From contig SCQP01000001.1 in assembly GCA_004299485.1 (NCBI GenBank), positions 434,001 to 498,000 on the forward strand: a stretch of 64,000 bases of DNA, in the 5' to 3' direction. Below are positions 47,770 through 50,396 of this stretch, in pieces (position 1 is the stretch's first letter; the number at the start of each line of letters is the position of its first letter). The notes below the pieces were generated by a model. It saw only the letters and a list, made by a program, of their open reading frames with translations. It was not told where the DNA came from and did not search any database. Origin of the DNA: Acidobacteriota bacterium (GTDB taxonomy: Bacteria > Acidobacteriota > Terriglobia > Terriglobales > SCQP01). A program made the translations under genes and the position numbers.

Positions 47770-48630
47770 TCAATCCGTGGCGGCCAGGCCGATAGCCGAG
47801 AGCATGCGGCCGGAATCACCGCGGCGATGCGAGTAAAACAGATCGGGCCGGCATCGGGTGCAGTAGGGCAGGACTTCGATCGCGGCGGGGGCGAGGCCGG
47901 CTTCCTCGAGTTGCGCGCGCAGCGCGGCTTGTAGATTGAGCCGGGCCGGAGAGGACGGATTCCAGCGGGGATCGCGGGGATGGCCAGGAGGCGCGCCGGT
48001 CATGAACAGCATAGGGTAGCGGTCGCGCACGGGGTCGGGTTCGGCGGCCTGAAACCAGGCCTCGGAGGAAGCGAAGCGGGCGGCGAAGGCCTGCTGAATT
48101 TCCGGACCGACCTCGTAGCAGCAGCCGCGGATGCAGGGACCGACGGCGGCAAGAACATCTTCAGGCTGCGTGCCGAATGCGGCCCGCATTTCGCCCACCG
48201 CGACGGCAGCGATGCGCGCCAGCGTGCCGCGCCAGCCGGCATGAACGGCGGCGATAGCGCGGTGGCGCGCATCGGCGAGCAGCACCGGGCAGCAATCGGC
48301 GGAGCGGATGGTCAGCAGCACGCCCCGGCGGCGGCTGAACATGCCATCGCCCGCCTGGCCGGGCTGCGGATCCTGCCAGACCAGATTGCTGTGAATCTGG
48401 CGGAGCATCAGCAGGAGTGGATGGTTGGGAATGCGATGCGGCTGCGGGTGCGATAAACCGCAGGCGCGCGTGCCAAAGGCGTGGCGGAGCCAGGGAAGCG
48501 CGCTTAGATTGCCGGCTCGCAGCAGGACATTGATTGGCGCGGGGCCCCGCTCGGCTACGCCGAGCGACCCGCTTGCGCGGGGCGGGCTGGGGCCCCATAG
48601 CCCTAGCCCGCCCCGCGTGTCTTCGTTCAT
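47770..48630 (-). CDS. pgeF: Peptidoglycan/purine nucleoside-type laccase-domain protein (YfiH/PgeF family)
   Basis: This 286-residue protein has LRQIHSNLVW (metal His), RSADCCPVLLAD, HAGWRGTLARIA (metal His) and GPCIRGCCYEVG (metal Cys), which are the copper/zinc site of the YfiH family. Members hydrolyse or phosphorolyse purine nucleosides and in some species edit peptidoglycan precursors. The N-terminal 30 residues include a palindromic GC element and are not conserved. ATG 48630 has no clear ribosome binding site, so translation could begin downstream. Confidence 0.8.
   Translation of the reverse strand: MNEDTRGGLGLWGPSPPRASGSLGVAERGPAPINVLLRAGNLSALPWLRHAFGTRACGLSHPQPHRIPNHPLLLMLRQIHSNLVWQDPQPGQAGDGMFSRRRGVLLTIRSADCCPVLLADARHRAIAAVHAGWRGTLARIAAVAVGEMRAAFGTQPEDVLAAVGPCIRGCCYEVGPEIQQAFAARFASSEAWFQAAEPDPVRDRYPMLFMTGAPPGHPRDPRWNPSSPARLNLQAALRAQLEEAGLAPAAIEVLPYCTRCRPDLFYSHRRGDSGRMLSAIGLAATD
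48541..48596. repeat. GC-rich palindromic element inside pgeF
   Basis: GGGGCCCC occurs at both ends (48541-48548 and 48589-48596). Between them lie the hairpins GCTCGGC-TAC-GCCGAGC and CCCGC-TTGC-GCGGG. It covers the non-conserved N-terminal codons of pgeF and resembles a small inserted hairpin element. Confidence 0.5.
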
Positions 48631-48652
48631 GCATCCATGGTAATCTGTGGCT

Positions 48653-48700
48653 ATGAAGTTCCTACCCATGTGCCTCTGTTGTTGCCGGCAACGGCGCTGA
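48653..48700 (+). CDS. Candidate cysteine-rich leader peptide
   Basis: This 15-codon frame reads M-K-F-L-P-M-C-L-C-C-C-R-Q-R-R then TGA. Four of the 15 residues are Cys, three of them consecutive. It sits in the leader of the peroxiredoxin gene, 47 bases before a terminator-like hairpin. The ribosome binding site is weak. The arrangement is that of an amino-acid-sensing attenuator leader. Chance cannot be excluded for so short a frame. Confidence 0.4.
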   Translation: MKFLPMCLCCCRQRR

Positions 48701-48747
48701 GGTGCGTGGGAACAGGTTTCGATCCAAATTTCGATCCCAACTGCTAT

Positions 48748-48771
48748 AGCCCACCGCCTGGTGGGCTTTTT
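48748..48771 (+). terminator. Terminator hairpin in the peroxiredoxin leader (attenuator candidate)
   Basis: AGCCCACC and GGTGGGCT form an 8-bp stem with loop GCCT, followed by a T-run. It lies only about 24 bases before the peroxiredoxin ATG, and the upstream gene is divergent. It therefore has nothing to terminate except a leader transcript. See the attenuation finding. Confidence 0.65.
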
Positions 48772-48794
48772 CACTTTTGAAAGGAATGTATCGC

Positions 48795-49472
48795 ATGAGC
48801 ACTGAAGTCGTCGAACGCACGCTGCCGCGCATCAATGAGCCGGCGCCGGAGTTTGAAGCCAAATCCACGCAAGGCCCGATCAAGCTGAGCGACTACAAAG
48901 GCAAGTGGGTGATGCTGTTTTCGCACCCGGCCGATTTCACGCCGGTGTGCAGCACGGAATTCATGGCGTTCGCCAAGCGCTACGCCGATTTCGAGAAGCT
49001 GGGGGTGCAGCCGATTGGGGTGAGCATCGACAGCGTCTTCAGCCACATCGCCTGGGCGCGGAGCATGGAGCAGCTTGGGGGAACAAAGATCCCCTTCCCT
49101 ATCCTGGCGGACCTGGACATGCGCGTGGCGCAAAGCTACGGGATGATTCATCCCGGCGCCAGCGACACGGCGCCCGTACGGGCGGTGTTTTTCATCGACC
49201 CGAAGCAGGTGATCCGCGCGATCCTGTACTACCCGCAATCGACCGGACGGAGCGTGGATGAACTTCTGCGCGTGTTCGAGGCGCTGCAGACCACCGACCG
49301 CTTCAGCGTCTCAACGCCGGCGGACTGGCATCCGGGCCAGCCGGTGGTGGTGGGCCCGCCGCAGAGTCAGGCGGAGGCGGAAAAGCGGGTCGCCGACAAA
49401 TCGCTCCACGTGCGCGACTGGTACTTATCGGAAAAGCAGCTCGAGCCAGGGGCGAAAGCCCAAAGCCGCTAA
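48795..49472 (+). CDS. 1-Cys peroxiredoxin (Prx6/AhpC-TSA type)
   Basis: This 225-residue protein has the peroxidatic motif HPADFTPVCSTEF (Cys near 51), the only cysteine in the protein. So it is a 1-Cys enzyme needing an external thiol for recycling. The C-terminal Prx6-like extension has ADWHPGQPVVVGPP. It reduces hydrogen peroxide and organic peroxides in the cytoplasm. Start ATG 48795 follows GAAAGGA. It lies behind a candidate cysteine leader and attenuator, which would tie expression to cysteine supply. Confidence 0.92.
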   Translation: MSTEVVERTLPRINEPAPEFEAKSTQGPIKLSDYKGKWVMLFSHPADFTPVCSTEFMAFAKRYADFEKLGVQPIGVSIDSVFSHIAWARSMEQLGGTKIPFPILADLDMRVAQSYGMIHPGASDTAPVRAVFFIDPKQVIRAILYYPQSTGRSVDELLRVFEALQTTDRFSVSTPADWHPGQPVVVGPPQSQAEAEKRVADKSLHVRDWYLSEKQLEPGAKAQSR

Positions 49473-49569: not shown

Positions 49570-50150
49570 TCAGGTGAAACATTCAGCCGGTTGGGGGTCC
49601 TCATCGGACCGGTGGATACGGGAAGCGTCGGGCGGGCGGAGAGCCGAAGGCTCGGAGCCTGCCCGATGCTTCTGCGCTGCCTGGCTTGGGGTTAGGCCGT
49701 CCAGACCGCTGTGGGGGCGGACCTGGTTGTAGTCAGCACGCCAGGCAGTGACGACCGCGCGCAGGTGCGGGACAGTGGCGAACTCGTGAAGATTGAGACA
49801 CTCGTCCCGCATGCGCCCGTTGAAGCTCTCGATGAAACCGTTCTGCATCAGCCGGCCAGCGGCGCCAGACCCGCCTCGTGGCAGCCCGCCAGACCGCCTT
49901 GGCGCCCGTCGGGTGGCCCTCCCGCCGCAGTTGCCGCCACAGCCGGCGTAGCCGTAGCGCGGCCGTTCGCCCGCCAGCTCCCGCAGACCGAGCCCCCACG
50001 CCGGCGCCTGCCTCCGGCTCCGCCAGCGCACGCTGCTGCGGTTTGCTCCCAGCACTTGGCAGGCCCGACGCTCACTCACCTCGTACCGCTGCCGCAGATA
50101 CTGCGCTGCCGCACGCTGTGCGCCGAGCCCTACCATTTTTTTGCCAACAC
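49570..50150 (-). pseudogene. IS3-family transposase OrfB remnant
   Basis: The N-terminal HTH_21 part is present (QYLRQRYEVSERRACQVLG). The frame shifts near the RPRYGYAG / RRLWRQLRREG junction and then jumps to the C-terminal end (MQNGFIESFNGRMRDECLN ... ADYNQVRPHSGLDGLTP). The catalytic core with the first two acidic DDE residues is deleted. Only the last Glu-containing block remains, so the element cannot move by itself. Confidence 0.8.
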
Positions 50151-50396
50151 CGCCCGCAACATCTTGTTGTCCAGCGTTGCTTCTCCCAGCATCTGCCGTA
50201 ACTGCCGGTTCTCCAGCTCCAGCACCGCCACCCGCTGCTGCTCCTCCGGCTTCATCCCTCCATACCGCGCCAGCCACCGGTACAGCATCGACCGTCCTAG
50301 TCCCAGCCGGCGGCATAGCCCCACCACTTCCGCTCCGCCTTTCATCTCCCGCACGATGCAGATGCGCTGCTCCTCACTAAACTTTCTCTCCCTCAC
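50130..50396 (-). CDS. IS3-family transposase OrfA
   Basis: This 88-residue protein has an HTH (FSEEQRICIVREMKGGAEVVGLCRRLGLGRSMLYRWLARYGG) and a leucine-zipper tail (EEQQRVAVLELENRQLRQML). This half alone is intact. OrfA binds the terminal repeats and makes the fusion transposase by -1 frameshifting with OrfB. Since orfB is broken, no active transposase is expected. Confidence 0.85.
   Translation of the reverse strand: MRERKFSEEQRICIVREMKGGAEVVGLCRRLGLGRSMLYRWLARYGGMKPEEQQRVAVLELENRQLRQMLGEATLDNKMLRAVLAKKW

Follow-up and report, generated by a model that had tools for sequence, protein, structure and literature searches.

A conserved poly-Cys leader upstream of peroxiredoxin, sulfur assimilation and tRNA-Cys genes in an Acidobacteria order: very likely a transcription attenuator sensing charged tRNA-Cys

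In the enterobacterial trp, his and leu attenuators, a leader peptide is combined with RNA segments that pair alternatively as 1:2, 2:3 and 3:4, the stop codon lying beside segment 2. Cysteine attenuators are known from two other settings. Poly-Cys leaders were predicted for mycobacterial cys operons, in which no conserved terminator was found (PMC1262725), and their mechanism has been described as translational (Canestrari 2020, as cited in PMC9031893 and PMC13236596). In Rhodobacterales, the uORFC-8-2 motif, placed before cysS, combines tandem Cys codons with an intrinsic terminator, and readthrough at low Cys-tRNA was proposed (PMC8632094). As for Acidobacteria, almost no functions had been assigned to the attenuators predicted in them (PMC2965389). 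In the open-licence literature searched, we found no prior report concerning Acidobacteria, a peroxiredoxin target or a tRNA target; the phylum, the peroxiredoxin target and the control of a tRNA gene are what is new here.

We examined a leader located upstream of a 1-Cys peroxiredoxin gene, in a 64,000 nucleotide stretch of acidobacterial DNA (hereafter, the window). Our best explanation is that this element works as a ribosome-mediated transcription attenuator of the classical type, which senses charged tRNA-Cys and often lies on a leaderless mRNA. We consider this very likely (probability about 0.87), on evidence that is comparative and computational only, without expression or ribosome data. 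If true, a function is assigned to an Acidobacteria attenuator family. The element shares with the mycobacterial poly-Cys short ORFs the run of Cys codons and the inferred control of sulfur and cysteine genes; a leaderless start, as in mycobacteria, is only suggested here, by -10-like hexamers. It differs from them by its conserved intrinsic terminator, its phylum, and its peroxiredoxin and tRNA-Cys targets. With uORFC-8-2 it has in common a Cys-codon uORF followed by an intrinsic terminator, whereas the Rhodobacterales motif belongs to Alphaproteobacteria, precedes cysS only, and has two Cys codons and its own two-stem structure (PMC8632094); cysS was not met among the leader targets of the relatives examined. 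Like the trp, his and leu attenuators, it has a leader peptide, alternative 1:2, 2:3 and 3:4 pairings and a stop codon next to segment 2; unlike them, it would sense cysteine, is probably leaderless, and would control non-biosynthetic genes and a tRNA gene. It would thus work like the mycobacterial and Rhodobacterales elements, homology to either being not shown.

All leader features of the window lie on the + strand, as does the regulated gene (48795-49472). The latter encodes a peroxiredoxin of 225 aa with one cysteine, matching NF009668 (275.9 bits, above cut-off) and containing the PF00578 and 1-cysPrx_C (PF10417) domains. The leader ORF, MKFLPMCLCCCRQRR (48653-48700), has a Cys run that is kept in relatives; it starts with the ATG at 48653 and counts 15 codons before a TGA stop at 48698-48700. 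Its Cys codons are codons 7, 9, 10 and 11, so that the regulatory codons span 48671-48685 (Cys7 at 48671-48673, Leu8, then Cys9-Cys10-Cys11 at 48677-48685). Segment 1, CCCATGTGCCTC (48665-48676), is the partner, in untranslated RNA, of segment 2, GAGGTGCGTGGG (48699-48710), which overlaps the stop codon and runs past it, and which can alternatively pair with the terminator 5' arm. Between CCCATGTGCC (48665-48674) and GGTGCGTGGG (48701-48710), ten positions pair, three of them as G-U, and in the minimum free energy fold this pairing grows to 12 bp (48665-48676 with 48699-48710). Moreover, GTGGG at 48706-48710 is able to pair with CCCAC at 48750-48754, in the terminator arm. A small hairpin (TTCGATCC...TTCGATC, 48718-48736) separates segments 2 and 3. 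The intrinsic terminator (48749-48771), G48749-CCCACC-GCCT-GGTGGGC48766 followed by T5, is composed of a 5' arm, which is segment 3 (48749-48755), a loop (48756-48759), a 3' arm (48760-48766) and the T-run (48767-48771). Folded alone it reaches -14.7 kcal/mol, and it ends 23 nt upstream of the peroxiredoxin start. The full leader region of 161 nt has a folding z of -4.7 relative to dinucleotide shuffles, and an Rfam scan of the window matched no family.

These results bear on an initial annotation of the locus. Its 15-codon ORF with Cys at positions 7, 9, 10 and 11 and a terminator just before the peroxiredoxin held exactly, as did its divergent upstream neighbour, which is pgeF (TIGR00726), and the assignment of the downstream gene as a 1-Cys peroxiredoxin. 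The two pairings it had proposed, over ten positions with GU wobbles and between GTGGG and CCCAC of the terminator arm, held as well, the first being extended in the fold. It had missed two aspects, both described below: that the transcript probably starts leaderless, and that the regulon extends beyond the peroxiredoxin.

A single Cys-rich small ORF is weak evidence, and the simplest rival is a chance Cys-rich ORF beside an unrelated terminator; indeed, a comparable clustering of Cys is seen in 3 of the 385 window ORFs that start with ATG and span 8-35 codons. Conservation of the ORF jointly with the terminator is not weak evidence. We searched about 100 related genomes, whose titles read Acidobacteria, Acidobacteriales or Terriglobia, for the peroxiredoxin and then read the upstream regions. 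Leaders were found at the equivalent place in the same genus (MFAMRRRLGCCRWMRKPA, MLAMRLCACCCRWMR, MHSRANVSQATGCCCCRLVR and MTRVTRLDCCCSHQHSG) and in other genera (for example MSTLIRLLCCCCCCCSPSRRCD and MEHLAPTCMCLCCCCCCRTVRVYCWS), each having downstream a hairpin of the CCCACC...GGTGGG type and then a T-run. A first covariance model, built from 15 peroxiredoxin leaders and run on the whole genomes, gave a match at most 500 nt upstream of 57 of the 90 peroxiredoxin genes of these genomes (median distance, 66 nt), and 4 further genes are the second of a peroxiredoxin tandem behind a leader-bearing gene. The terminator with its T-run is kept in every leader used, and compensatory changes are seen in its stem (67 leaders). 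TGT represents 47% of the leader Cys codons, against 16% (17/108) in the long ORFs of the window. Checked in relatives against its own refuting condition, an absence of conserved Cys codons or pairing segments, the reading of the initial annotation was not refuted. The chance explanation is refuted by this conservation, in tens of species and before functionally linked genes, and is all but excluded. Hits L160, L165, L166, L199 and L306, together with reverse-strand palindromic hits such as L125 (+), were rejected as false.

Another possibility is that the Cys-rich peptide itself is functional, by metal or redox binding, and is merely followed by an ordinary partial terminator. Densely clustered Cys residues, as in CCCC, are able in principle to bind metals. 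However, Cys alone is common to all the leader peptides compared, and both the length (about 13-30 aa) and all the non-Cys residues vary even within a genus. In addition, the switch in arm pairing presented below rests on the RNA sequence around the stop codon, and the leader also sits before tRNA genes. We consider this rival very unlikely.

A -10-like hexamer, TAATCT, is present at 48641-48646, six bases 5' of the ATG of the small ORF. Among 70 leaders, the window one included, 30 have a TANNNT hexamer 3-12 nt before an in-frame ATG, as compared to 3.8% of control ATGs, and only 1 of these 30 has a Shine-Dalgarno-like tetramer. Such hexamers and the rarity of Shine-Dalgarno sequences suggest that the small ORF is often translated from a leaderless mRNA, the start sites being inferred and not mapped.

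In the attenuator that we favour, transcription would begin at or just 5' of the ATG, and a ribosome would translate the 15-codon ORF while RNA polymerase moves ahead. With ample Cys-tRNA, the ribosome would reach the stop codon and cover segment 2 (48699-48710), the terminator at 48749-48771 would form, and transcription would end before the peroxiredoxin gene. When Cys-tRNA is scarce, the ribosome would stall at codons 7-11, 48700-48710 would pair with 48750-48759, and the polymerase would read through. Without translation, segments 1 and 2 would pair and the terminator would form. Two hallmarks of the attenuator class, a run of Cys codons in a short ORF and an intrinsic terminator between this ORF and the gene, are met directly; a third, an antiterminator whose formation requires stalling on the control codons, is supported by modelled folds only. 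For this modelling, the window leader RNA was folded as grown to 48760, in three ribosome states, on the assumption that the ribosome covers 12 nt, counted from the first nucleotide of the A-site codon. In the untranslated leader, segments 1 and 2 paired and the terminator 5' arm was free; with the ribosome at the Cys codons, 48700-48710 paired with 48750-48759; a ribosome that had reached the stop codon left the 5' arm free. A switch between the stalled and the stop-codon state was modelled in 59 of the 70 leaders, and mean pairing of the 5' arm was 0.72 for a ribosome stalled at the Cys codons versus 0.15 for one at the stop codon, the values being 0.48 and 0.38 respectively after dinucleotide shuffling of the spacer. 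The 11 others lacked the switch, notably the peroxiredoxin leaders L203 and L204 and, in genera g9 and g13, some of the sulfite reductase leaders.

Since leaders are related, p-values computed over 70 sequences are nominal and overstate independence. When leaders are grouped by genus and target, 22 of the 24 groups have a segment close to the stop codon that pairs with the 5' arm better than shuffled sequences do (sign test, p = 3.6e-5). The antiterminator duplexes are more stable than their shuffled counterparts (mean z = -1.5), and comparison of arm energies between matched and swapped partners gives weak support (p = 0.03), because the arms themselves are conserved. Once the window transcript is complete, the terminator fold (-26.5 kcal/mol) is more stable than the antiterminator (about -21.6 kcal/mol); readthrough must therefore be kinetic, the choice being made while the RNA is still growing, as for classical attenuators. 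The proposal of the initial annotation that stalling at the Cys codons blocks the first pairing and could favour antitermination is supported by the modelled folds, stalling and readthrough under cysteine limitation remaining inferred. Alternatively, the position of the ribosome might gate the downstream ribosome-binding site or Rho, by translational attenuation or Rho-dependent termination, a mode proposed for the poly-Cys leaders of mycobacteria, the hairpin having a minor role. Translational attenuation has indeed been reported for the leaderless mycobacterial small ORFs (Canestrari 2020, cited in PMC9031893 and PMC13236596). Against this stand the strong intrinsic terminator and T-run, with compensatory changes, in every leader used, and the presence of the leader before tRNA-Cys genes, which are not translated. 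This makes the rival very unlikely.

Used blind, the 15-leader model gave matches mainly just 5' of peroxiredoxins, and the remainder were followed up. They precede sulfite reductase, cysD/cysN, cysK (TIGR01139) and SsuA-family sulfonate transporter genes, as well as tRNA-Cys. The reductases are of the NIR/SIR type (sulfite- or nitrite-reductase-like), and siroheme-synthesis-like genes follow in several cases, the exact substrate being not proven. A second covariance model, built from 67 leaders, extended the set with further leaders of reductase and cysD genes and with genes for beta-barrel outer-membrane proteins. An APS/PAPS reductase gene (L280) likewise has a leader, and in G004, a genome of the same genus, a Cys-rich ORF and a terminator precede a cysD-like gene (L269). 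A further hallmark of the class, targets linked to the amino acid, is thus seen in relatives, whose targets include sulfite reductase, cysD/cysN, cysK, ssuA and tRNA-Cys, and the presence of the leader before sulfur assimilation genes and tRNA-Cys fits cysteine sensing. The link drawn in the initial annotation between antioxidant expression and low charged tRNA-Cys is thus supported by conservation and gene set, in the absence of expression data. If true, peroxiredoxin is tied to cysteine supply via the ribosome and not via a redox-sensing protein. As to the large beta-barrel outer-membrane proteins behind poly-Cys leaders (L288, on both strands, L303, L292 and L294), the genes of L288 and L303 are divergent from cysD/cysN, and these proteins might be sulfur-compound receptors.

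The physiological signal itself is inferred; a plausible one is the loss of reduced cysteine, via sulfur limitation or oxidation. The same stall might instead report the oxidation or metal poisoning of cysteine, of cysteinyl-tRNA synthetase or of nascent Cys, and not sulfur supply, in which case the element would in effect be a peroxide or metal sensor. Two observations favour this rival. Peroxiredoxin is the commonest target, and no PF01507 (CysD/CysH) gene was found in the genome of the window (G000, 98.8% complete), so that a role restricted to sulfate assimilation does not hold in that organism. Most family members do have such a gene, and the organism may possibly depend on reduced sulfur. 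However, in relatives the leader precedes sulfate assimilation, cysteine synthase and tRNA-Cys genes, which is a signature of control by cysteine supply, and we hold the redox or metal signal to be unlikely. As both signals act through the same stall, it is a variant of the attenuation reading.

The tRNA-Cys genes were found by sequence (n=54), and 44 of them directly follow a peroxiredoxin gene, within 400 nt. Four of the 54 come directly after a strong leader match, with no protein gene between leader and tRNA-Cys (GCA) (L149, L151, L152 and L156), and one further gene (L231) has a clear leader, giving 5-6 of 54 in total. The sixth, L238 (G051), is degenerate: about 210 nt upstream of the tRNA-Cys, the terminator is retained and the Cys run is down to one Cys codon, which may represent a decaying attenuator. 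In some genera, a gene called tRNA-SeC (UCA) follows the peroxiredoxin where others have tRNA-Cys (L021, 1324-1422, -; L037, 2284-2381, +; L134, 2518-2615, +; L019, 149-247, -). In the family of the window, no tRNA follows the peroxiredoxin, which is therefore a target in its own right. A bolder reading is that the attenuator acts on the gene for the same tRNA whose charging it senses, directly or via a leader-peroxiredoxin-tRNA-Cys operon, so that one cysteine-starvation regulon would join sulfur assimilation, antioxidant defence and the level of tRNA-Cys in this Acidobacteria order. We lean slightly towards this reading; if true, it provides a clear example in which the charging of a tRNA regulates the gene encoding it.

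In a survey of 297 genomes of the phylum, 24 had matches, 21 of them in this order, the genome of the window included. The 3 matching genomes outside the order had no poly-Cys small ORF, and the distant hits L260, L261 and L263 were rejected on this ground, two of them being near tRNA-Val and tRNA-Asp. In the window's own genome, the peroxiredoxin copy is the only significant model match. IS3-like transposase fragments, read from ORF translations only, follow the peroxiredoxin gene at 49570-50396 (-). Just upstream of the leader, at 48525-48620, lies a GC-rich palindromic repeat of ~90 bp, REP/BIME-like, of which about 43 more partial copies (75-95% identity) are scattered in the genome.
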